Below, piece by piece: positions 38,403 through 50,761 of a stretch of 64,000 nt of DNA. How positions within the stretch are numbered: position 1 is the first letter of the stretch; each line of letters opens with the position of its first letter. The stretch is from Stenotrophomonas sp. BIO128-Bstrain (GTDB lineage: Bacteria; Pseudomonadota; Gammaproteobacteria; Xanthomonadales; Xanthomonadaceae). The stretch spans positions 2,790,001-2,854,000 of the forward strand of contig NZ_CP124620.1 in assembly GCF_030128875.1 (NCBI RefSeq). The letters run 5' to 3'. The notes below the pieces were generated by a model. That model searched no databases. It saw only the letters and a list, made by a program, of their open reading frames with translations, and was not told where the DNA came from. The position numbers and the translations under genes were made by a program.

Positions 38403-40685
38403 ATGACCGTCCGCCCGACTCCGTTGTCGTCCGCCCTGCTGCTGGCCATCGCCGCCCCCGCCATCGCCCATGCCGAGGCCGACGCTGCCGATCCGCAGCG
38501 CGCCACCGAACTGGATGGCGTCGACGTCCACGGCGAGCGCGTGCGTGCGCAATCGTCCAAATTCACCGCGCCGCTGCTGGATACGCCCAAGTCGGTCAGC
38601 GTGATCTCCCAGCAGGTGATCGAACAGACCGCCGCCACCACCCTGCTCGATGCACTGCGCACCGTGCCGGGCATCACCTTCGGCGCCGGCGAAGGCGGCA
38701 ACCCGACCGGTGACCGTCCCTTCATCCGCGGCTTCGATTCGGCCTCGGACATCTACGTCGATGGCATCCGCGACGCCGGCAGCCAGACACGTGAAGTGTT
38801 CGCCATCGAGCAGATCGACGTGGTCAAAGGCCCGAGCTCGGCCTACTCCGGCCGCGGTTCAGCCGGCGGCACCATCAGCCTGGTCAGCAAGACGCCCCAG
38901 CTGGAGAACTTCGTGGCCGGCAGCCTGGCCGCCGGCACGGACAGCTACTACCGCGGCACGCTCGATGCCAACCAGTTGATCGGCGACGGCATCGCCGCGC
39001 GTGTGAACATCATGAAGCACGAGGCCGACGTGGCCGGCCGTGACGAAGTCAACAGCAGCCGCTGGGGCATCGCGCCGTCGCTGGCGTTCGGTCTGAACGG
39101 CCCGACCCAGGCGGTGATCAGCCACTACCACATGGAAACCGACGACCTGCCCGATGCCGGCGGCTTCCCGTACAACAACCCGTTCACCAGCGGCCCCAAC
39201 CTGGCGCTCAATGGCGACGGCAGCCCGATCGTGACCAACCGCGACGCGTTCTACGGCCTGGTCGACCGCGATTTCCAGAAGACCAAGGCGGACATCACCA
39301 CCTTGAACCTGTCGCATGATTTCGGCGGCATCGTCCTGCGCAACATCACCCGCTACGGGGACACCAGCAACGATTACCTGTGGACCCAGCCGGACGACAG
39401 CAAGGGCAATCCGAACCTGTTCGGCACCGTCTGGCGCCGCACCAACGCGCGCGCCACGCAGACCGACAGCTTCGTCAACCAGACCAGCGTTACCGGTGAG
39501 CTGGAGACCGGCCCGCTGCGCCACAGTTTCAACGCCGGCGTGGAATACAGCAGCGAAAAGACCGTGCGCGGCACCTACGCGATCGCCGACGTGCGCCGCC
39601 CCAATGGCCAGACCACCGCAGGCACCAACAACCCGCTGACCGGCAACCAGAGCTGCCCGACCACCGGCGCGGCCACCGGCTACAACTGCACCGACCTCAC
39701 CCACCCCAACCCGAACGATCCGTGGTCGGCCACGCATACCGTCACCCGCAGCGACCCGGCCCGCGACGTGCGTCAGACCACCCGCACCAAGTCGGCCTAT
39801 GTGTTCGACACGATCAGCTTCAGCGAGCAGTGGATGCTGAACCTGGGCGCGCGCTTCGACGACTACAACACGCATCAGTTCAACCCGACGGCCGCGGCCA
39901 ACCTGCAGCACCTGCGCAACGACACCTCGTTCTGGAACGGCCAGGCCGGCCTGGTGTTCAAGCCGGTCGCCATCGGCAGCATCTACCTGTCCTGGGGCAC
40001 CTCCTCCACCCCGGTCGGCGTGGACGGCGGTGATGGCGCCGACGGCATCAGCGCGACCATCCAGGATCTCAAGCCGCAGCGCAGCCGCAACATCGAGCTG
40101 GGCACCAAGTGGGATCTGTTCGATGCCCGCCTGTCGCTGACCGGTGCGATCTTCCAGACCGAGATGAGCAACGCGCGCGTGACCAGCGATGCGGGCACCA
40201 CGCAGAACGCTGGCACCAAGAAGGTCAAGGGCGCCGAACTCGGCTTCAGCGGCACGATCGTGGAGGGGTGGCAGGTCTTCGGTGGTTACACCTACCTGGA
40301 TGCCGTGGTCGAGGACAACGGCTTTGCGCTGGTCAACGGGGTCTACGTGCCATCGCCGTTCAACGGCAACGCGTTCCCCAACACCGCCAAGCACAGCGCC
40401 AGCCTGTGGACCACGTGGGCGCCGTCGTTCGTGCCGGGCCTGAGCCTGGGCGCCGGTGCCAACTACGTGGACAAGGTCTACGGCAACGTCAACAACACCA
40501 AGTGGGTGCCGTCCTATACCCGTTGGGATGCGATGGTCGGCTACGCCTTCAGCGAGCGCTACAACCTGCAGTTGAACGTGCAGAACCTGACCAACAAAAC
40601 CTACTTCACCAAGGCGTACGCTTCGCATTACGCCGCCATCGCGCCGGGCCGCTCGGCCACGTTGGCCTTCAATTTCAAGTTCTAA
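38403..40685 (+). CDS. TonB-dependent catecholate siderophore receptor (Fiu/PiuA type)
   Basis: 760 residues, the same length as E. coli Fiu. Signal peptide ([17 protein letters not shown]), TonB-box region ELDGVDVHG, plug motifs [35 protein letters not shown] and VDGIRDAG, and a 22-strand barrel ending ATLAFNFKF. The D-T-P-K-S-V plug is typical of the Fiu/PiuA/FhuE branch. The following genes encode a PiuC-like dioxygenase and a Sel1 protein, the same set as piuA-piuC in Pseudomonas aeruginosa. It should import ferric catecholates and probably takes up catechol-type siderophore-antibiotics too. Confidence 0.9.
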
Positions 40686-40692
40686 GCGATAC

Positions 40693-40724
40693 GCCCCCTC
40701 CCGTGTCCCGGCGCGGGAGGGGGC
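40693..40724 (+). promoter_or_regulatory. Strong intercistronic hairpin between receptor and piuC-like gene
   Basis: Perfect 11-bp GC stem: GCCCCCTCCCG (40693-40703) with CGGGAGGGGGC (40714-40724), 10-base loop, no T-run. The right arm carries the GGGAGGGGG Shine-Dalgarno-like sequence just before the piuC ATG (40736), so folding could lower piuC translation or set mRNA ends. Confidence 0.6.
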
Positions 40725-40735
40725 TGGAGCCCACC

Positions 40736-41425
40736 ATGCTGCTGCACATTCCCGACGTCCTCACCGCCGAGCAGGTCACCCAGGCCCGCCAGCAGCTGGC
40801 CACGGCCGGCTGGACCGACGGCCGCCTGACCGCGGGTTACCAGTCCGCGCAGGCCAAGCACAACCTGCAGTTGCCCGAGTCCGATCCGGCCGCGCGTGCG
40901 GTCGGCTCGGCCATCCTCAATGCACTCGGCCGCAACAGCACCTTCTTCTCGGCCGCGTTGCCGCGTCGCATTTTCCCGCCGCTGTTCAACTGCTATCAGC
41001 CGGGGCAGACCTTCGGGTTCCATGTGGACAACGCCGTGCGCTACGACTACACCGCCCCCGGCCAGCCGCAGCCGGTGCGCACCGACCTGTCGGCCACGTT
41101 GTTCCTGAGCGACCCGGATGAGTACGAGGGTGGCGAGCTGGTGATCGAAGACACCTACGGCAACCGGCGGGTGAAACTGCCGGCCGGCCACATGGTGCTG
41201 TACCCGGGCACCAGCCTGCACCAGGTTACCCCCGTCACCGCCGGCACGCGGCTGGCCTCGTTCTTCTGGATCCAGAGCATGCTGCGTGATGACGGCCAGC
41301 GGCGCCTGATGTGGGACCTGGATGTCTCGATCCGCCGCCTCACCCATGACCACCCCGAACACCCTGCGCTGGTGAATCTCACCGGCGTGTATCACAACCT
41401 GCTGCGGCAGTGGGCCGATGTCTGA
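40736..41425 (+). CDS. PiuC/YbiX-family Fe(II)/2-oxoglutarate dioxygenase (PKHD type)
   Basis: 229 residues. PKHD hydroxylase motifs: [10 protein letters not shown] (HxD iron ligands), [12 protein letters not shown], and [27 protein letters not shown] with the distal His and the 2-oxoglutarate Arg. PiuC/YbiX proteins are coded next to catecholate receptors in many Gram-negatives and affect siderophore-antibiotic uptake; their substrate is not known. Start ATG chosen inside the ORF because the receptor gene ends just before it. The stop region overlaps the next gene by eight bases. Confidence 0.92.
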
Positions 41426-42131
41426 GCCGGCCCTGCCCGCGTTCGACCTGGCAGCACTGGCCGACCAGCTGCAGCACGATCCGGCCGCCGCGCTCGCCAC
41501 GCTGGAAGCGACCGCGCAGCGCGGCGACCCACAGGCGCAGTTCCTGCTCGGGCAGGCCCGGATGGAAGGGCGCGGGATCGCGCCCGATGCGGCGGCGGCC
41601 GTGCTCTGGTTCGAGCGCGCCGCCAACGGTGGTCTGCCCCTCGCCATGAACATGCTCGGCCGCTGCCACGAACTCGGCACCGGGACGCCGATCAACCTGG
41701 CACTGGCCGCGGTCTGGTACGGCAAGGCAGCGGATGCCGAGTTGGACTGGGGCCTGTACAACCTGGCCAACCTGCTCGGCACCGGCCGCGGCGTGCCGCG
41801 CGATGACGCCGCCGCATTCGCGCTGTACCTGCGCGCGGCACGGCTGGGCCATGCGAAATCGATGAACCTGGTCGGCCGCTGTCTGGAAGACGGCATCGGT
41901 GTACCGGCCGATCCGCGTGCGGCACCGGCCTGGTACCTGCGTTCGGCCGAGGCCGGCGACTTCCGCGGGCAGGCCAGCCATGCCTCCCTGTTGCTCGCCG
42001 CCGGTGATATCGACGGTGCGGCGGACTGGCTGCGTCGCGCACTTGCACACGGGAGCCCGTCGTTTCTGGCTCACGTGCGCCCCACCTTGGCGGCCTCTCC
42101 GCATCCCGCGATCCGGGCGCTGGTCAGCTGA
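41418..42131 (+). CDS. Sel1-repeat protein
   Basis: 237 residues without a signal peptide. Four to five Sel1-like repeats are visible: [56 protein letters not shown] and [19 protein letters not shown]. The same gene order (receptor, piuC, Sel1) is found in P. aeruginosa (PA4514-PA4516), as I recall, supporting a shared function in ferric catecholate processing. It overlaps piuC and is thus co-expressed. Molecular role unknown. Confidence 0.88.
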
Positions 42132-42160
42132 TTCCTGCGCTCCGGACGCGCAGGGACCGA

Positions 42161-42183
42161 AATCATTAATCATTCTCATTTGC
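42161..42183. promoter_or_regulatory. Fur box upstream of the FepA-type receptor unit
   Basis: AATCATTAATCATTCTCATT and TGC: contains the AATGAGAATGATT core (reverse strand) typical of Fur boxes. It overlaps the -35 of the promoter at 42180. Confidence 0.75.
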
Positions 42184-42695: not shown

Positions 42696-42835
42696 TTCCG
42701 ACCTTCGGCGGCGCCACCGTGCCCGCCTCCGGTCCTGCGCGTTGCGCCCGCCCCGGGCGTTCCTGATTCCTGCGCGTGCTGCCGCCCTGCGGCCTGCCAC
42801 GTCGCGTCCGTTTTCTCCCTTCCGAGGTTGCCCCC

Positions 42836-45259
42836 ATGGCCCAGCGCCATCGTCGTCGCACGTCCCTGTCCCGCTGCACGCTGTCCCTCGCCCTGCTCGG
42901 TGCGCTGAGCGCCCCGGCCTTCGCCCACGGCGACGCCGCCGCTCCGACCACGCTGGACAAGGTAGTGGTCACCGCCGCCGGCTTCGAACAGAAGATCGCC
43001 GATGCACCGGCCAGCATCAGCGTGATCAGCCGCGAAGAGTTGAGCAAGCGCCCCTACACCAGCCTGGTGGATGCGCTGCGCGACGTGGAAGGCATCGACG
43101 TGGGCATGGAACCGACCGACAAGAACGGCCGCGCCACCATCTCCATGCGCGGCATGCCCTCGGACTACACCCTGGTGCTGATCGACGGTCGCCGCCAGAG
43201 CAACGCCGGCAACCTGTACCCGAACAACTTCGGCGGTGGCCAGTTCTCGTACATGCCGCCGCTGGATGCGATCGAACGCATTGAAGTGGTGCGCGGCCCG
43301 ATGTCCACGCTGTATGGCTCCGATGCCATGGGCGGGGTGATCAACATCATCACCCGCCGCAACCAGGCCGAGTGGCATGGCGCGGTCACCCAGGGCTTCA
43401 CGGTGCAGCAGGACGACCAGTTCGGTGACGCGCGCAGCACCGATGTCTACCTCAGCGGCCCGCTGGTCAAGGACCGTCTGGGCGTGTCAGTGCGCGGCAG
43501 CTATTACGACGCCAAGGCCTCCAACCCGGAATGGGATGACCTGCCGCTGCCGGACGGCACGATGTGGTCGCGCAGCATCGGCTTCGGTGCCGGTGGCAAG
43601 GCGGTGGCCAACACGAACTGGAACGCGGGCATGCGCCTGAACTTCATCGTCAATGACGACCACGAGCTGTGGCTGGATTACGACGTGTCGCGCCAGAAGT
43701 ACGACAACAGCGAAGGCCAGACCGGCACCCTGGACAGCCTGGCCAGCCTGTGGCGCGTGGGCAATGCCACGATCCCCAACCCGAACGGCCCCGGCAACGT
43801 CACCCGCCGCGTGGTGCAGCCGCGCGTGGGCTACACCGCCTACCAGCGTTACGAGCGCGACCAGCTGGCGCTGACCCATCAGGGCCGTTATGAATTCGGT
43901 ACCTGGCAGACCACCCTGACCCACATCACCAGCAACAACCTCGGCCGCTCGCTGCCGCTGACGCTGGACGAACGCGCCGATCTGCAGACGCTGTGGAATG
44001 ATGTCTGCCGCCGCACCGGCGCCGCCGCCAACTGCGCTGCCGGTGCACGCAACGGACTGGGCGCGCTCAACCCGGCCGAGATGGCGCGCCTGCAGGCCTT
44101 CCTGCCACGCCCGCTGCGCACCATGGAGCTGAAGGGCAACGTGCTGGACACGATGCTCGACCTCACCTTCGGTGCGCACAAGCTGACCGTGGGCGGCCAG
44201 TACAACGACACCGACATGGTCGACGGCGTGTTCGGCATGGATGGGGCCGGCTACAAAGATAACGTGAAGCAGCAGCACCGCATGTGGGCGCTGTTCGCCG
44301 AGGACAACTGGTCGCTGACCGACAGCCTGACCGCGACGGTCGGCGTGCGCTATGACGACCACAACATCTTCGGCAGCCACGTCAGCCCGCGCGCTTACCT
44401 GGTGTGGAACGCCAACGATGCCTGGACCCTCAAGGGCGGCGTCAGCACCGGCTACAAGACACCGCGCCCGGACCAGCTGTTCCCCGGCATCGTCGGCTTC
44501 GGTGGCCAGGGTGTGACCCCGCTGGTCGGCTCGCCCAACCTGAAGCCGGAGACCAGCACCAACTACGAAATCGCCGCGTACTACGAAGGCGATCGCTGGG
44601 GCTTCAACGTCACCGGCTTCCTCAACAAGTTCGATGACAAGATCGCCAGCGGCGGCACCTTCGCCAACTGCGAAGTGGCCCCCAACGATGGCAGCTATTG
44701 CGTGGACATCGGCCCGGGCTGGGCCGAGCTGGGCTACAGCACCTTCGGGCAGAGCGTGAACATCGACAAGGCCGAAACCCGCGGCGTCGAGGCGGCGGCC
44801 CAGGTCGATCTGCTGGACAACCTGCAGCTGCGCGGCAACTACACCTGGACCAAGAGCGAGCAGACCAGCGGCACCGGCAAGGGCCTGCCAATCACCGGCA
44901 ACCCGGCCAGACACATGGCCAATGCCAGCCTGAACTGGCAGATCAGCGAGGCGGTGAGCCTGTCGCTGATCGGCGAAGGCCGCTACGACCGCTACCGCGA
45001 CACGCTGGTCAGCAATGTCGGCGGCGTCAGCAGCTCGCAGACCCGCTATTACGAGGACTACACGATCTTCCACCTCGGCGGCAGCTGGGACATCAACAAC
45101 TGGCTGACCGTCAACGCGCGGGTCAACAACCTGTTCGACAAGGACTTCGTGTCGCAGTCCTGCGTGCTGATCAGCGACAGCGAATACGACTGCGTGGATG
45201 ACTATTCCACCAAGGACCAGCGGCGCAGTTACTGGATCTCGTTGAACGCCAAGTTCTGA
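42836..45259 (+). CDS. TonB-dependent ferric-enterobactin-type receptor (FepA/PfeA/IroN-like)
   Basis: 807 residues from MAQRHRRRTSL with signal peptide (LALLGALSAPAFAHG). TonB box TLDKVVVTA; plug with ASISVISREELSKRPY, GRATISMRGMPSDYTLVLIDGRRQS, MPPLDAIERIEVVRGPMSTLYGSDAMGG-type stretch, which is the FepA/BtuB class. Cysteine pairs in the barrel (NDVCRRTGAAANC; SQSCVLISDSEYDC) suggest disulfide-stapled loops. It ends YWISLNAKF. Start chosen for the CCGAGG ribosome site. With the downstream reductase operon it suggests uptake of ferric catecholate followed by reduction. Confidence 0.88.
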   Translation: MAQRHRRRTSLSRCTLSLALLGALSAPAFAHGDAAAPTTLDKVVVTAAGFEQKIADAPASISVISREELSKRPYTSLVDALRDVEGIDVGMEPTDKNGRATISMRGMPSDYTLVLIDGRRQSNAGNLYPNNFGGGQFSYMPPLDAIERIEVVRGPMSTLYGSDAMGGVINIITRRNQAEWHGAVTQGFTVQQDDQFGDARSTDVYLSGPLVKDRLGVSVRGSYYDAKASNPEWDDLPLPDGTMWSRSIGFGAGGKAVANTNWNAGMRLNFIVNDDHELWLDYDVSRQKYDNSEGQTGTLDSLASLWRVGNATIPNPNGPGNVTRRVVQPRVGYTAYQRYERDQLALTHQGRYEFGTWQTTLTHITSNNLGRSLPLTLDERADLQTLWNDVCRRTGAAANCAAGARNGLGALNPAEMARLQAFLPRPLRTMELKGNVLDTMLDLTFGAHKLTVGGQYNDTDMVDGVFGMDGAGYKDNVKQQHRMWALFAEDNWSLTDSLTATVGVRYDDHNIFGSHVSPRAYLVWNANDAWTLKGGVSTGYKTPRPDQLFPGIVGFGGQGVTPLVGSPNLKPETSTNYEIAAYYEGDRWGFNVTGFLNKFDDKIASGGTFANCEVAPNDGSYCVDIGPGWAELGYSTFGQSVNIDKAETRGVEAAAQVDLLDNLQLRGNYTWTKSEQTSGTGKGLPITGNPARHMANASLNWQISEAVSLSLIGEGRYDRYRDTLVSNVGGVSSSQTRYYEDYTIFHLGGSWDINNWLTVNARVNNLFDKDFVSQSCVLISDSEYDCVDDYSTKDQRRSYWISLNAKF

Positions 45260-45308: not shown

Positions 45309-45344
45309 GGGCAGCGGTCCGGCAAGGGACCGCTGCCTTCTTTG
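45309..45344 (+). terminator. Terminator after the FepA-type receptor gene
   Basis: GGCAGCGGTCC (45310-45320), loop GGCAAG, GGACCGCTGCC (45327-45337), then TTCTTT. A second hairpin, GCGGCGT/ACGCCGC, lies at 45272-45294. Confidence 0.8.
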
Positions 45345-45350
45345 TCTACA

Positions 45351-45381
45351 AATTGCGAATCATTCTCATCAATGGTGTAAT
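45351..45381 (+). promoter_or_regulatory. Fur-boxed promoter of the PepSY-ApbE-reductase operon
   Basis: Fur-box text AATTGCGAATCATTCTCATC at 45351-45370 overlaps a promoter TTGCGA (45353-45358), 17 bases, TGTAAT (45376-45381). Because the box lies inside the apparent ORF start, the true start of the PepSY gene must be downstream. Confidence 0.75.
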
Positions 45382-45409
45382 TCGCCCCTCAGTACTCTCT
45401 CTTCCGACC

Positions 45410-46048
45410 GTGGCCACCAGCGCTCCCTCTTCCAGCGTGCAACAACAACGCCGCGGCTTCTGGCTGCGCACGCTGCACCAGTGGCACTGGATCAGCTCGG
45501 CGGTGTGCCTGATCGGCATGCTGCTGTTCGCCGCGACCGGCATCACCTTGAACCACGCCTCCCGGATCGAAGCCACGCCGGAGGTGGTCAGCCGTCAGCT
45601 GGAACTGCCTGCCGACCTGCTCGGCAAGCTGGGCGACCGCGCCGATGGAAAGGCACCGATCCCGCGCGTGGCCAGCCGCTGGCTGGATGCACAGCTCGGC
45701 ATCTCGATCGGGCGTCGCCCGGCCGAATGGTCCGATGGCGAAATCTATCTCTCCATGCCCAGCCCAGGCGCGGACGCATGGCTGAGCATCGACCGTGAAA
45801 CGGGCGAGGTGGAGTACGAATCCACCGCGCGTGGCTGGGTGTCCTATTTCAACGATCTGCACAAAGGGCGCAATGCCGGGCCTGCCTGGGGCTGGTTCCT
45901 GGATATCTTCGCCGTGGCCTGCCTGGTGTTCTGCATCACCGGCCTGTTCCTGCTGCACCTGCATGCCCGCCAGCGCCGCATGACCTGGCCGCTGGTCGGC
46001 CTGGGCCTGCTGATCCCGCTGCTGATCGCCCTGATCCTCATCCACTGA
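45410..46048 (+). CDS. PepSY-associated transmembrane protein (probable reductase membrane subunit)
   Basis: 212 residues if the GTG at 45410 is used; the TTG at 45353 lies in the Fur box. Three membrane helices: about 23-48 ([24 protein letters not shown] in part), about 157-182 and about 186-210. A periplasmic loop of some 110 residues with [25 protein letters not shown] strands forms the PepSY part. Histidines at helix ends (LHQWHW, NDLHKG, LHLHAR) could bind haem, as in PepSY-TM ferric reductases such as P. aeruginosa FpvG or PiuB. First gene of a five-gene iron-regulated unit. Confidence 0.85.
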
Positions 46049-46071
46049 CCGTCCCCTTCCGGAGCCGCACC

Positions 46072-46590
46072 ATGCGCGTCACCCTGACCATCGCCCTGAG
46101 CGGCCTGCTGGCCACCTCGCCGGCCTATGCCACCACCCTGGACATCAATGTCGAGGTGCCCAAGCTCAACGTGGCCGAATACCACCGCCCCTATGTGGCC
46201 GTGTGGCTGGAAGGCGCCGACCAGAAGGTCGCCGCCAACCTGTCGGTCTGGTACCAGCAGACCGGCAACAGCGAGGGCCATGGCACCAAGTGGCTGCCCG
46301 ACCTGCGCCAGTGGTGGCGCAAGAGCGGCCGCACGCTGGAGGTGCCGGTGGACGGCGTGACCGGTCCGACCCGCCCGGTCGGCAAGCATGCGCTGTCGTT
46401 CAACGACAAGCAGCCGGCGCTCAAGGCACTCGCCCCGGGCAACTACACCCTCGTGGTGGAAGCGGTGCGCGAAGTCGGCGGCCGCGAACTGCTCAAGATC
46501 CCCTTCACCTGGCCGGTCACGGCCGCACAGACGGGCAAGGCCCAGGGCGCGACCGAACTCGGTCTGGTCACCCTGTCCGCCAAGCCCTGA
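46072..46590 (+). CDS. DUF2271 periplasmic protein (possible flavinylation substrate)
   Basis: 172 residues with signal peptide ([18 protein letters not shown]). DUF2271 text: [55 protein letters not shown]. Near the end, KAQGATELG places Gly-Ala-Thr (T161) where an S/T-G-A-T-type FMN attachment motif of ApbE substrates could be; the match is partial. The gene sits 23 bases after the PepSY gene and before DUF4198 and apbE, so a covalently bound flavin on this protein is plausible but unproven. Confidence 0.8.
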
Positions 46591-46615
46591 TACCCCATCC
46601 ACCTGGAGTTTTTCG

Positions 46616-47422
46616 ATGAAGCGCACGCTCGTCCTCGCCGCCGCCATGGCCGCCGCACTTCCGTTCTCCGCCCTGGCCCACAAGGCCTGGCTGCAGCCCT
46701 CGCAGACCGTGATCGCGGGCACCAACCCGTGGATCACCGTCGATGCGGCGGTCTCCAACGACCTGTTCTACTTCAACCACGTGCCGCTGCGCCTGGACAA
46801 CCTGGTCATCACCGCGCCCGACGGCAGCACCGTGCAGCCGCAGAACGCGGCGACCGGCAAGTTCCGCAGCGTGTTCGATGTCGAGCTGACCCAGCAGGGC
46901 ACCTACCGCCTGGCCACGATCAACAACGGCCTGTCGGCCAGCTGGGAAGAAGACGGCAAGCCCAAGCGCTGGCGCGGCACCCCGGCCACCTTCGCCACCG
47001 AAGTCCCGAAAAACGCGAGGAACCTGCAGGTCTCGCAGTCGGTCGGCCGCGTGGAGACCTTCGTCACCAACGGCACCCCGAACGACACCGCGCTCAAGCC
47101 GACCAACCAGGGCATCGAGATGATCGCGCTGGCCCACCCGAACGATCTGGTCGCCGGTGAAGCCGCACGCTTCCGCGTGCTGGTCGACGGCAAGCCGGCC
47201 GCCGGCCTGGACTTCGAGATCACCCGCGGCGGCACCCGTTACCGCAACGCACAGGAAGAGATCAAGGTCAGTACCGATGCCAAGGGCGAGTTCGCCGTCA
47301 CCTGGCCGGAAGCGGGCATGTACTGGCTGGAAACCGGCACCGAGGACAGCAAGACCTCGATCAAGGAAGCCAAGAAGCGTCGCCTGAGCTACGTGGCCAC
47401 GCTGGAAGTGCTGCCGGAGTAA
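46616..47422 (+). CDS. DUF4198 periplasmic protein
   Basis: 268 residues with a signal peptide ([19 protein letters not shown]). The mature protein begins [13 protein letters not shown], typical of the DUF4198 (nikM/cobalt-transport-associated) family, and ends with a Greek-key like domain ([37 protein letters not shown]). These domains appear in metal-uptake operons and may bind metal or substrate in the periplasm. It follows the DUF2271 gene by 25 bases. A hairpin with a short T-run lies after it. Confidence 0.85.
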
Positions 47423-47462
47423 CGGCATCCGGCGTGCCGTGCGCGCGCCGTCCTCCCCACCC

Positions 47463-47489
47463 GCCCCCGCCGACCTGACGGGGGCTTTT
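47463..47489 (+). terminator. Possible partial terminator inside the reductase operon
   Basis: GCCCCCG (47463-47469), 9-base loop, CGGGGGC (47479-47485) and TTTT. It could reduce apbE and reductase transcription relative to the first three genes. Confidence 0.5.
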
Positions 47490-47542
47490 CACCCGACGCA
47501 TTCCGGCCATCGGGCTTACCAAGGCCCGACCTGCCCACCCCC

Positions 47543-48523
47543 ATGACCAATCCGGATTTCGACATCGCCCACCTCGGTGGCCACACCATGGGCACCACCT
47601 GGCAGGTAAAACTGGCCGTGGCGCGCACCCGCGACCTGCACCCGTTGCATGCCGGCATCCAGGCGCAGCTCGATGCCATCGTGGCGCAGATGAGCACGTG
47701 GGAAGCCGACAGCGATATCGCGCGCTTCAACCGTGCCTCCGCCGGTGAATGGCAGGTGCTGCCGCCGTTGTTCGATACGGTGATGCAGTGTGCGCTGGAG
47801 ATCGCGCAGCGCAGCGGCGGCGCCTTCGATCCCACCGTGGGCCCGCTGGTGGCGCTGTGGGGGTTCGGGGCGCAGGCGCAGGCCCGGCGGATTCCCGATG
47901 CCGACACGCTGGCGGCAACGCGCGCGCGCTGTGGCTGGGAACGCCTGCAGTGGCAGCCCGGTCGCCTGCTGCAACCCGGCGGACTGGCACTGGATCTGTC
48001 GGCGATCGCCAAGGGCTTTGGTGTCGATCAGGTCAGCGCGTGGCTGCGCCAGAACGGGGTACACGCCGCATTGGTGGAGGTCGGCGGCGAGCTGCACGGG
48101 TTTGGGCACAAGCCCGATGGCCAGCCGTGGCGCGTGCTGGTGGAATCGGCACCGGAGGAAGACGCGCAGGCCACCTACCCGCCACGCGTGCTGGCACTGA
48201 CGGACCGCGCGGTCGCCACCTCCGGTGATCGCTGGCACCACTTCGAGCAGAGCGGCGAGCAGTTCAGCCACACGCTGGATCCGCGCATCGGTGCGCCGGT
48301 CACGCGCGCTGCGGCGGCCGTCACCGTGGTTGCCGACAGCGCCATGCAGGCCGACGCCTGGGCCACGGCGCTGACCGTGATGGGCAGGGACGAGGGCATG
48401 GCATTTGCGCGCACCCATGCGCTGGCCGCACGCTTTGTCGGCCGTGGCGCGCACGGTAGCGAGGAATCCATGAGTCCTGCATTCGAGCAGTTGCTTGCCG
48501 ACGATCGCGTGGGCGCGGCATGA
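47543..48523 (+). CDS. apbE: FAD:protein FMN transferase (ApbE)
   Basis: 326 residues. ApbE motifs: HTMGTTWQVKL near the N-terminus, GGAFDPTVGPLVALWGFG, LDLSAIAKGFGVDQVSAWL and HTLDPRIGAPVT, with the acidic and Thr residues that bind FAD and Mg. There is no clear signal peptide in the chosen start, so it may act in the cytoplasm or start upstream is missed. ApbE transfers FMN to a Thr of client proteins; here the clients are most likely products of its own operon. ATGA overlap with the next gene. Confidence 0.93.
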   Translation: MTNPDFDIAHLGGHTMGTTWQVKLAVARTRDLHPLHAGIQAQLDAIVAQMSTWEADSDIARFNRASAGEWQVLPPLFDTVMQCALEIAQRSGGAFDPTVGPLVALWGFGAQAQARRIPDADTLAATRARCGWERLQWQPGRLLQPGGLALDLSAIAKGFGVDQVSAWLRQNGVHAALVEVGGELHGFGHKPDGQPWRVLVESAPEEDAQATYPPRVLALTDRAVATSGDRWHHFEQSGEQFSHTLDPRIGAPVTRAAAAVTVVADSAMQADAWATALTVMGRDEGMAFARTHALAARFVGRGAHGSEESMSPAFEQLLADDRVGAA

Positions 48524-50133
48524 GCCTGCGCCCCTCGCGTGCGTGGTTGGGCAACCTGATGGTGATGGTGCTGCTGGGCGTCATTGCCTGGGCGCTGCTG
48601 CGCCTGCATCTGGGCGACGCCTGGTGGCCAGCCGCACCGTTGGCCGCGCACTGGCGCTGGGCAGCGGGCAGCCTGGTGCTCTATGCCGCGTTCTGCACCC
48701 TGATCTGGTGGCGTGGACGACCGCGGCAGGCGCGCGTGGCCGACAACGGACCCGCACCGATCCTGCTGGTCTGGGCCAGCCAGACCGGCTTCGCACAGCA
48801 GCTGTGCGACCGCAGCGCAGAGGCATTGCGCGCTGCCGGGCTGCCAGTGCGCATCCGTGCGCTGCATGCGGTGACGGCCGAGCTTTTGCAGCGCAGCGCG
48901 CAGGTGCTGTTCGTGGTCAGCACCACCGGCGAGGGCGATGCACCGGATCATGCCCTGCCCTTCCTGCGCAAGGTGATGCCGCAGGCGCCCGCACTGCCCC
49001 ACCTGCAGTACGGCGTGCTGGCCCTGGGCGATCGCAGCTATGGCCATTTCTGCGCCTTCGGCCACCAGCTCGACGCGTGGCTGCGCCAGCGTGGTGCGCA
49101 CCCGCTGTTCGACACGGTTGAAGTGGACAATGCCGATCCCGGTGCGCTGCGCCACTGGCAGCAGCTGCTCGGCCAGCTCGGCGGCGAAGCCACCGACCTG
49201 CCGGACTGGACGCCGGCCGAGTATCTGCCCTGGCAACTGCAGGCGCGGCATCTGGAAAATCCGGGCAGCCCGGGCGCACCGACCTACCGGATCACCCTGG
49301 TGCCTGCCGATGGCACCCTGCCGGTCTGGCAGGCCGGCGACGTGGTCGAGATCGGGCCGCAGCATGCACCGGCGGACGTCGAAGCCTGGCTGCGCAAGAC
49401 GCCGTGGGCGGGCGACACATTCATCGATGGGCAGACGCTGCGTGCGCACCTTTCGCACGCGCATCTGCCCGGTGCAGAGGAGATGGCGGCGCTTGCCGAT
49501 CCAGATGCCGTGGTCGCCGCGTTGCGTCCCCTGCCGCACCGGGAATACTCCATCGCCACCCTGCCCGCCGAAGGCCAGGTGCAGCTGCTGCTGCGCCGCC
49601 AGCTGCGGCCCGATGGCACGCCGGGCCTGGGCAGTGGCTGGCTGTGCGATCACGCTGCGCTCGATGGGCGCATCGATCTGCGCTTCCGCAGCAACCCCAA
49701 CTTCCATGGTGTGGCGGCGGCAACGCCGCTGATCCTGATCGGCAACGGCACCGGCATCGCCGGCCTGCGCGCGCACCTGCGCGAGCGGATCAGCGCCGGC
49801 GCGCGCCGCAACTGGCTGCTGTTCGGCGAGCGTACGGCCGCGCACGATTTCTTCTTCGGCGACGACCTGCGCGCCTGGCAGCGCGACGGCTGGATCGCAC
49901 GGCTGGATACGGTGTTCAGTCGCGACGGTGGTGAGCATCACTACGTGCAGGACCGGCTGCAGGCGCAGATCCACACGCTGCAGCAGTGGGTGCACGACGG
50001 TGCCACGATCCTGGTCTGCGGCAGCCTGCAGGGCATGGCACCGGCGGTGGATGCGGTGATCGAGCAGGCGCTGGGCCGCGACGGTAAAGAAGCGCTGATC
50101 GTGGCCGGGCGCTACCGGCGCGACGTGTACTGA
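48520..50133 (+). CDS. Membrane-anchored flavodoxin/FAD/NADPH reductase (PiuB/CysJ-like)
   Basis: 537 residues. Two N-terminal membrane helices (about 9-28 and 42-61), then a flavodoxin domain (WASQTGFAQQLCD, STTGEGDAPDHALPF, GDRSYGHFCAFGHQLD), an FAD-binding barrel (REYSIATLP) and an NADPH domain (LIGNGTGIAGLRAHL, CGSLQGMAPAVDAVIEQAL). Thus NADPH, FAD and FMN can pass electrons in series, as in sulfite reductase alpha-subunit. In P. aeruginosa PiuB a PepSY part is fused to such a domain; here the two are split over the ends of one operon. It likely supplies electrons to the PepSY membrane protein for ferric reduction. Confidence 0.88.
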   Translation: MSLRPSRAWLGNLMVMVLLGVIAWALLRLHLGDAWWPAAPLAAHWRWAAGSLVLYAAFCTLIWWRGRPRQARVADNGPAPILLVWASQTGFAQQLCDRSAEALRAAGLPVRIRALHAVTAELLQRSAQVLFVVSTTGEGDAPDHALPFLRKVMPQAPALPHLQYGVLALGDRSYGHFCAFGHQLDAWLRQRGAHPLFDTVEVDNADPGALRHWQQLLGQLGGEATDLPDWTPAEYLPWQLQARHLENPGSPGAPTYRITLVPADGTLPVWQAGDVVEIGPQHAPADVEAWLRKTPWAGDTFIDGQTLRAHLSHAHLPGAEEMAALADPDAVVAALRPLPHREYSIATLPAEGQVQLLLRRQLRPDGTPGLGSGWLCDHAALDGRIDLRFRSNPNFHGVAAATPLILIGNGTGIAGLRAHLRERISAGARRNWLLFGERTAAHDFFFGDDLRAWQRDGWIARLDTVFSRDGGEHHYVQDRLQAQIHTLQQWVHDGATILVCGSLQGMAPAVDAVIEQALGRDGKEALIVAGRYRRDVY

Positions 50134-50149: not shown

Positions 50150-50761
50150 TCAGGCGTTGCGGCCCACCGCACTCACGCGGATCGCCAGCAACTCGCCGCC
50201 GCCGTGCAACGCAAACCGGCGGCGCTCGCCGGCAGCCAACCAGGCGGTATCACCGGCGGCCAGCGGTGCCAACAACGGCTCCCCGTCAAATTCGGCCTGG
50301 CCGGCCAGCAGATGGATCGCCCAGGCCGCCTCGGGTTCGGTGAAAAAGAACATGCTGCCGACCAATGGCCGATGCAGCAGCTCGGCCTGGACCGCATCGC
50401 GCCGCCACATCAGATTGAAATCGTGGGTCACCCCGTCGACCAGTTCGCCGGTCACCTGCGCTTCGCCGGCAAACCGCAGCCGGTCGTGCGGCGGCATCAG
50501 CGTGTGCAGCGCGCCATCGTCGAAACGCAAGCGCAGGCCCTCGCCACGCAGCAGCACCAGTTCGCGCTCGATGCCCGGAAACGCCGAGAACGCGGCGTCC
50601 TGCTCGATCTCGGCGATCGACAGGCGCACCTGCCAATCGTCGTTGTCGGGCACGCGCAGGATTTCGCGGGTCCAGCCCAGGCCATTGCGCCAGCGTTCGC
50701 GGCGGTACTCGAAAGCGGGAATGACGCGGCTGGCCGCGCTCAGGACGGTATCGGGGGACAT
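50150..50761 (-). CDS. HutD/Ves-family protein
   Basis: 203 residues with the bicupin HutD/Ves pattern: RRERWRNGLGWTREI at the start, WQVRLSIAEIEQDAAFSAFPGIERELVLL, and DFNLMWRRDAVQAEL in the middle. HutD is linked to histidine degradation genes in pseudomonads and Ves to cold growth in E. coli; no hut genes are seen here. Convergent with the reductase gene, 16 bases apart. Confidence 0.85.
   Translation of the reverse strand: MSPDTVLSAASRVIPAFEYRRERWRNGLGWTREILRVPDNDDWQVRLSIAEIEQDAAFSAFPGIERELVLLRGEGLRLRFDDGALHTLMPPHDRLRFAGEAQVTGELVDGVTHDFNLMWRRDAVQAELLHRPLVGSMFFFTEPEAAWAIHLLAGQAEFDGEPLLAPLAAGDTAWLAAGERRRFALHGGGELLAIRVSAVGRNA

Follow-up and report, generated by a model that had tools for sequence, protein, structure and literature searches.

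The DNA analyzed here is a 64,000-nucleotide stretch of the Stenotrophomonas sp. BIO128-Bstrain genome (contig NZ_CP124620.1, positions 2,790,001 to 2,854,000), referred to below as the window, and all coordinates are positions within it; the parent genome is complete and consists of a single contig of 4.49 Mb. The subject is a rightward operon at 45,349-50,133, which begins with a Fur-like box and promoter and continues with genes encoding PepSY_TM_like_2, DUF2271, DUF4198 and ApbE proteins and a flavodoxin/NADPH reductase, a set that may flavinylate an iron-reducing protein before its export. The features of the operon are as follows.

45349..45373, no strand assigned: Fur-like box formed by two overlapping 19-mers, 45349-45367 (13/19 consensus matches) and 45355-45373 (12/19).
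45410..46048, plus strand: PepSY_TM_like_2 membrane protein with three transmembrane (TM) segments (PF16357, E 6.5e-84; PF03929, 3.1e-11; start codon inferred).
46072..46590, plus strand: exported DUF2271 protein, predicted carrier of flavin mononucleotide (FMN) (PF10029, E 2.8e-50; motif conservation).
46616..47422, plus strand: exported DUF4198 protein (PF10670, E 7.7e-60).
47463..47487, plus strand: stem-loop GCCCCCG..CGGGGGC followed by TTTT, between the DUF4198 gene and apbE (RNA fold of the gap, z -1.6).
47543..48523, plus strand: ApbE, an FMN transferase with neither a signal peptide nor a lipobox (PF02424, E 1.3e-82).
48520..50133, plus strand: membrane-anchored flavodoxin and NADPH/flavin adenine dinucleotide (FAD) reductase, CysJ/CPR-like (PF00258, PF00175).

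The five genes and their order, as read in an initial annotation of this DNA, were recovered by Pfam (PF16357/PF03929, PF10029, PF10670, PF02424 and PF00258 with PF00175, respectively). The ATGA link between the last two was also confirmed, with apbE and the reductase gene overlapping at 48520-48523. The reductase partially matched the cysJ model, under that model's cut-off, and had a TM-like segment at residues 13-31. The nearest named relatives belonged to Stenotrophomonas, where records of S. rhizophila and S. maltophilia matched the window DUF2271 with 97-98% identity.

Fur sites were predicted by counting the matches of 19-mers to the Escherichia coli Fur consensus. In the 64 kb, 13/19 matches were reached only at 45349-45367 and in two 19-mers that overlap each other at 42159/42165, ahead of the neighboring receptor gene. 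When the local 151 bp were shuffled 2000 times by mononucleotide, 13 matches were reached in 0.3% of the shuffles. In relatives, at least 12 matches were found within 250 bp around the PepSY start in 59/166 distinct loci, whereas equal-sized intra-operon stretches contained them in 4/166. The 13/19 site overlapped a -35-like hexamer, TTGCGA (45353-45358), lying inside the box, and a -10-like hexamer, TGTAAT (45376-45381), lay beside it (both hexamers read by eye), which agrees with the Fur box over the -35 element described initially. A consensus promoter scan gave no promoter at the operon start because it requires A at position 2 of the -10 hexamer. TTG at 45353 was set aside as the start of the PepSY open reading frame, since it falls within the promoter and Fur box, and GTG at 45410 is the likelier start. 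A table of the S. maltophilia Fur regulon, modified from RegPrecise, contains pepSY (SMLT_RS05540) and SMLT_RS05535, as well as a receptor gene, sel1 and piuC at SMLT_RS05555-05565 (PMC6240677); judged by gene names and order, these entries appear to represent the same locus. The stem-loop at 47463-47487 was absent from the terminator-scan listing of the window; it is a possible, weak attenuator that could lower the expression of apbE and the reductase gene.

Conservation of the gene set was assessed in a family sample of 149 genomes, 76 of which contained DUF2271; 80 loci were fetched, and 70 were of the window type, defined by a DUF2271 profile score of at least 180, other DUF2271 types being excluded from the window-type counts. 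These 70 loci contained PepSY in 70 cases, DUF4198 in 69, ApbE in 68 and the reductase in 70, and all five genes were linked in 68, so that the unlinking in relatives that would have spoken against the initial annotation was not found. The locus L097, from a genome in about 330 contigs, had neither an ApbE nor a DUF4198 match. Among 80 named-record loci, 16 were dropped as duplicates (DUF2271 DNA identical to that of family loci) and near-identical strains were retained; all five genes were present in 57 of the remaining 63 window-type loci and in 18 of 37 window-type loci from the rest of the phylum. Outside the family, 60 places above the cut-off were fetched and 12 were left out (the second copies in G834 and G621, two places each in G835 and G741, and G682, G820, G656, G759, G867 and G690); G126, with a partial DUF2271, was not fetched, new order-level places were left out of the sample, and L179 and L255 yielded no DUF2271 row from the profile. 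ApbE was found in 70/71 family genomes with a window-type DUF2271 versus 26/73 without any DUF2271, a co-occurrence that is partly trivial because apbE belongs to the operon. Pooled counts below are given after duplicate removal.

ApbE attaches FMN to the final residue of the motif D-x-x-[S/T]-G-A-[S/T] (PMC12052999). In the window, two positions of the DUF2271 protein came into consideration.

46351..46371, plus strand: predicted flavinylation heptad D94-G-V-T97-G98-P99-T100 of DUF2271 (motif and conservation).
46552..46554, plus strand: codon of T161, rejected as the FMN site (variable column, motif unmet).

The first was the sole D-x-x-[ST]-G-[AP]-[ST] heptad among the nine window proteins scanned, and the alignments of all five operon proteins contained no other conserved ApbE-type motif. 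T100 was Thr in 170/170 distinct window-type DUF2271 proteins, namely, 169 in the alignment and L124, which was misaligned in the pooled alignment and reads TGAT in other checks (186/186 with duplicates), and D94 was kept in 178/180. The canonical [S/T]GA[S/T] form was not found in the window protein, which has T-G-P-T at 97-100, the same position with Pro instead of Ala; Pro also occurs in most relatives, a feature missed by the initial annotation. That annotation had placed FMN on T161, and a GAT is indeed present at 159-161; however, the column was S in 95, T in 50, E in 8, H in 7 and A in 5 of the 180 proteins, with others besides, residue 160 was Ala in only 21 of 180, and the heptad G-K-A-Q-G-A-T has neither the Asp nor the Ser/Thr that the motif calls for. 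Flavinylation of T161 is thus highly improbable. T100 is most likely the FMN site, because it lies in the only conserved heptad, whereas the T161 column varies and the motif there is unmet. In the A. ursilacus DUF2271 protein, FMN was found on the Thr of a single conserved [S/T]GA[S/T] motif (PMC8238504), for which T100 is the only candidate in the window protein (matched by motif).

The ApbE protein encoded in the operon appears to lack a recognisable export signal and to stay in the cytosol, which the initial annotation had not noticed. It starts with MTNPDFDIAHLGGHT, followed by the catalytic core (MGTT...); the 15 residues preceding the core are mostly polar, and the best 11-residue hydropathy is -0.11. 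The in-frame sequence upstream held only a stop codon and stretches that are polar or rich in proline, with no export signal or lipobox. The Ser-His-Asp triad S227-H243-D271 was kept in 154/156 distinct relatives, and its spacing equals that of S241-H257-D285 in V. cholerae ApbE. For comparison with relatives, the signal score was the best 11-residue hydropathy in the 60 residues before the core, with cut-offs of 2.2 (strict) and 1.9 (looser). At 2.2, 18/155 distinct operonic ApbEs looked exported and 137/155 did not (153/171 without a signal when duplicates were included). The cut-off of 2.2 was judged strict because it was exceeded by just 58/170 DUF2271 and 141/168 DUF4198 proteins; at 1.9, 141/170 DUF2271, 168/168 DUF4198 and 4/116 cytosolic PKHD proteins were positive. 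A contrast to the operonic enzymes was provided by 20 genomes in which the DUF2271 cluster had no apbE: apbE was found elsewhere in all 20, and the best stand-alone copy per genome scored above 2.2 in 17/20 and had a Cys after the hydrophobic stretch (lipoprotein-like) in 20/20 (30 copies were scored, the best of each genome being counted; among the 10 further copies, L301, L302, L303, L305 and L306 had no signal).

One alternative is that ApbE is carried to the periplasm in some way that escapes recognition (a weak or cryptic signal, or piggy-back) and flavinylates there, as in other systems. The exported-substrate systems found in the literature use exported ApbE, and weak signals do escape the 2.2 rule, which flags so few DUF2271 proteins and misses 3/20 of the lipoprotein-like stand-alone ApbEs. 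Against such a route stand the short polar stretch ahead of the window ApbE core and the looser cut-off, at which ApbE is still positive in 20/155 cases versus all DUF4198 proteins, and twin-arginine-like n-regions (RRx[FLIVMA]) occurred in 6/170 DUF2271 proteins and in none of the window. A hidden periplasmic ApbE is consequently quite unlikely, and export of folded, flavinylated DUF2271 by the twin-arginine pathway was likewise rejected on the last of these counts. An exported DUF4198-ApbE fusion formed by read-through or frameshift was also rejected: the two window reading frames share a frame across one stop, yet the frame offsets were distributed as 37/45/54 among distinct signal-less loci, which is near chance. 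The complete source genome encodes no ApbE besides the operonic one, which is without a recognisable export signal, so that flavinylation of the DUF2271 precursor in the cytosol is the most likely course; similarly, 45/54 family relatives with a signal-less operonic ApbE hold no other ApbE. Among named-record loci (duplicates included), signal-less ApbEs were found in Stenotrophomonas (16), Pseudoxanthomonas (17), Xanthomonas (15), Luteimonas (6), Solimonas (2) and Burkholderiales (3); a further 15 loci belong to other classes within the phylum (presumably Alphaproteobacteria). At 16/154 signal-less loci (duplicates included), the core is preceded by a short R-V-L-[I/V]-P-like motif at the N-terminus, its carriers outside the family being L214, L217, L218, L232, L233, L242, L248 and others.

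The Pro-containing motif was compared with the predicted location of ApbE. Within the family, tabulated for the window and 68 relatives, the 14 ApbEs that look exported were paired with [ST]GAT (12) or SAAT (2), whereas the 55 signal-less ones were paired with [ST]GPT (49) or SGAT (6). In the wider distinct set, Pro was found in 106 signal-less loci and in 0/18 exported ones, and Ala was found in 31 signal-less loci ([ST]GAT in 27, SSAT in 4); a strict rule equating a signal-less ApbE with G-P-T was rejected, since it holds one way only. On a tree of 123 of the 170 rows, thinned at 88% identity, there were 4 changes of signal state and 8 of Pro. An independent-pairs test gave no support for an association (p = 1), so the Pro motif is described here as characteristic of lineages and not as something that ApbE relocation has been proven to cause.

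The same substitution allows the view that DUF2271 is no longer flavinylated in G-P-T lineages, T100 being kept for another reason while ApbE serves some cytosolic protein. Pro stands in place of the canonical Ala, and elsewhere replacement of this Ala by Val halves flavinylation; moreover, Klebsiella has a soluble ApbE that acts on a substrate in the cytosol, the ApbE of its fumarate reductase being without a signal peptide (review PMC12052999). The Klebsiella substrate is a soluble enzyme modified in the cytoplasm, whereas the window substrate bears a signal peptide. Weighing against loss of flavinylation, T100 and D94 are invariant or nearly so in G-P-T lineages, standard [ST]GAT motifs also pair with signal-less ApbEs (the 27 distinct loci above), and ApbE is retained in the operon, with no other known substrate family, of those tested (FMN_bind, NqrB/RnfD, DUF3570), found in the source genome. 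Loss of flavinylation is thus unlikely, and a DUF2271 protein charged at T100 before export is preferred.

The initial annotation had guessed that the gene set might be listed in flavinylation surveys, and it does correspond to the PepSY-like flavinylation systems, for which 3220 clusters were reported, with DUF2271 in 2833 and DUF4198 in 1500 (Méheust et al. 2021, PMC8238504). The operon class is thus already known (PMC8238504; mSystems 2024, PMC11334425; Caulobacter papers). As in those systems, the window combines PepSY_TM (PF16357), DUF2271, DUF4198 and ApbE with iron links, and a PF03929/PF16357 protein is encoded beside ApbE and DUF2271. Clusters were defined by a signal peptide in at least one flavinylation gene (ApbE, FMN-bind, DUF2271 or DUF3570) (PMC8238504), and the N-terminus of the window DUF2271 is signal-like by inspection. 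The window differs from these systems in its ApbE without an export signal and its T-G-P-T motif: an extracytosolic ApbE, which the window appears to lack, lies outside the cluster definition, as does [S/T]GA[S/T], given there as a conserved feature (PMC8238504). The flavinylation test of the A. ursilacus system used signal-peptide-truncated proteins in E. coli (PMC8238504). Caulobacter CCNA_03155-03159, five genes identical in kind to the window operon, are Fur-regulated, are associated with a fitness loss in ethylenediaminetetraacetic acid (EDTA) and have been proposed to carry out periplasmic ferric reduction (PMC3751524, PMC12004947). According to a 2025 review, ApbE is typically a membrane-anchored enzyme of the periplasm, and the cytosolic ApbEs that it names have intracellular substrates only (PMC12052999).

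Upstream of the operon lie the following genes.

38403..40685, plus strand: TonB-dependent receptor, Fiu/CciT-like (domain and model matches).
40736..41425, plus strand: PKHD-type 2-oxoglutarate-Fe(II) dioxygenase of the PiuC/YbiX/CciO type (PF13640 and PF18331; linked in relatives).
42776..45259, plus strand: TonB-dependent receptor, CirA/CfrA-like, directly upstream of the operon.

A separate Fur-like box (42,159-42,183) precedes the CirA/CfrA-like receptor gene and a terminator-like hairpin (45,309-45,338) follows it, so that this gene is probably a transcription unit separate from the operon. Farther upstream, the Fiu-like receptor, the PKHD dioxygenase and a Sel1 protein are encoded at 38403-42131. 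A receptor and PKHD dioxygenase pair of the CciT-CciO/PiuA-PiuC type, missed by the initial annotation, is linked to the operon both in the family and beyond: the dioxygenase gene was close by in 56/70 window-type family loci, with the Fiu-like receptor gene adjoining it in 56/56, as well as in 47 of the 63 named-record loci and 14 of the 37 loci from the rest of the phylum. Outside the family, the PKHD gene was upstream, downstream or on the opposite strand, and because the arrangements differ, the link probably arose several times. In P. aeruginosa, piuB, which encodes a PepSY ferrisiderophore reductase of the FoxB type, presumably lies adjacent to piuA and piuC. In Caulobacter, the CciT and CciO genes (CCNA_00028/00027) are located away from CCNA_03155-03159, whereas in the window the pair is upstream of the operon; CciO-CciT synteny was reported for Caulobacter, and the part of PMC12004947 covered here does not mention the operon beside the pair.

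The three-helix PepSY protein with His residues noted initially was confirmed by three TM-like segments and by His26, His49, His151, His185 and His212, which are conserved among 177 distinct proteins and are candidate haem ligands. Its AlphaFold2 (AF2) model had a mean pLDDT of 91.8; the fold match to FoxB (7ABW) was weak, with FoxB outside the Foldseek top 50, and a sequence search of solved structures gave nothing useful for either PepSY or DUF2271. The FoxB-type PepSY ferrisiderophore reductases share with the window PepSY_TM, conserved His and a link to TonB receptors (PMC11334425, PMC13038864, PMC12424826), whereas the window operon has a PepSY protein with three TM helices, a separate NADPH reductase and an added covalent-flavin carrier. 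The fold predicted for DUF4198 is that of a metal protein, and an invariant His stands at the predicted mature N-terminus, both of which had also been overlooked: His22 (codon 46679-46681) was kept in 177/177, His55 in 161/177 and His174 in 158/165 ungapped sequences, and His22 would be the first residue of the mature protein after a predicted A-L-A cleavage site.

By fold, the AF2 model of DUF4198 matched both metal-bound Zcp (9MHx entries, PDB titles) and the Ni-binding DUF4198 of Ideonella (9GCB; PMC12537917). The Ideonella protein shares the N-terminal His as well, but its second ligand is His18, whereas the window protein has Trp at mature position 18 by a simple count and its other conserved His at mature 34 and 153. 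Since the Zcp structures contain Cu, Zn or Co, and since CrpH, another PepSY_TM protein, supports copper enzymes (PMC13038864), the operon might reduce or handle another metal, such as copper or nickel, instead of or besides iron. This is very doubtful in view of the Fur-like box, the iron-responsive Caulobacter operon with its EDTA phenotype and the linkage to siderophore-type receptors, all of which favor iron.

Overall, about an even chance is given to a Fur-regulated ferric reductase of the PepSY-like flavinylation class, with DUF2271 flavinylated in the cytosol by ApbE and then exported by Sec. ApbE, using cytosolic FAD, would attach FMN to the DUF2271 precursor in the cytosol, and the Sec pathway would export the chain already carrying FMN. 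Electrons would pass from NADPH to the FAD/FMN of the membrane-anchored reductase, then to haems bound by the conserved His of the PepSY protein, then to the FMN held covalently on Thr100 of periplasmic DUF2271, and finally to Fe(III) brought by the TonB receptors; Fe(II) would be passed on, perhaps by DUF4198, and taken up by FeoB, for which a domain match is present in the source genome. The iron-responsive chain proposed initially, from NADPH through the reductase, PepSY haem and a flavin to iron, is upheld by family knowledge and conservation, except for its flavin at T161; the site to consider is T100. That this locus represents a widespread branch in which modification precedes export, with a non-exported ApbE charging DUF2271, Sec exporting the flavoprotein and the Pro motif (T-G-P-T) tolerated or used, is a tentative proposal, held at somewhat less than even odds. 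If it is true, a covalent flavin could be installed before export, and FAD would not have to be exported to the periplasm; action of ApbE inside the cell in Stenotrophomonas, Xanthomonas, Pseudoxanthomonas, Burkholderiales and another proteobacterial class (presumably alpha) would bear on the biogenesis of periplasmic flavoproteins and on the range of Sec cargo. No case of an ApbE that stays in the cell yet modifies an exported protein was found in the main texts of the open-access literature searched, which is weak evidence of absence.

Several minor observations were made around the operon and among its relatives. A HutD/Ves-like gene at 50150-50761 on the minus strand is convergent with the operon. 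A Stenotrophomonas-like copy of the locus with a 95% identical DUF2271 was found in a record of Bacillus subtilis SK7B5 (contig00005; L144), most likely a contaminated assembly. A second DUF2271 type, in which DUF2271 and ApbE are fused in an open frame of 519-678 codons, was found in L127, L129, L132, L135 and L136, with DUF4198 upstream and a receptor-like match downstream; some of the N-termini were hydrophobic. In L128, L130, L131, L133 and L134, a further DUF2271 type was found near a reductase and an ApbE without an export signal by hydropathy.

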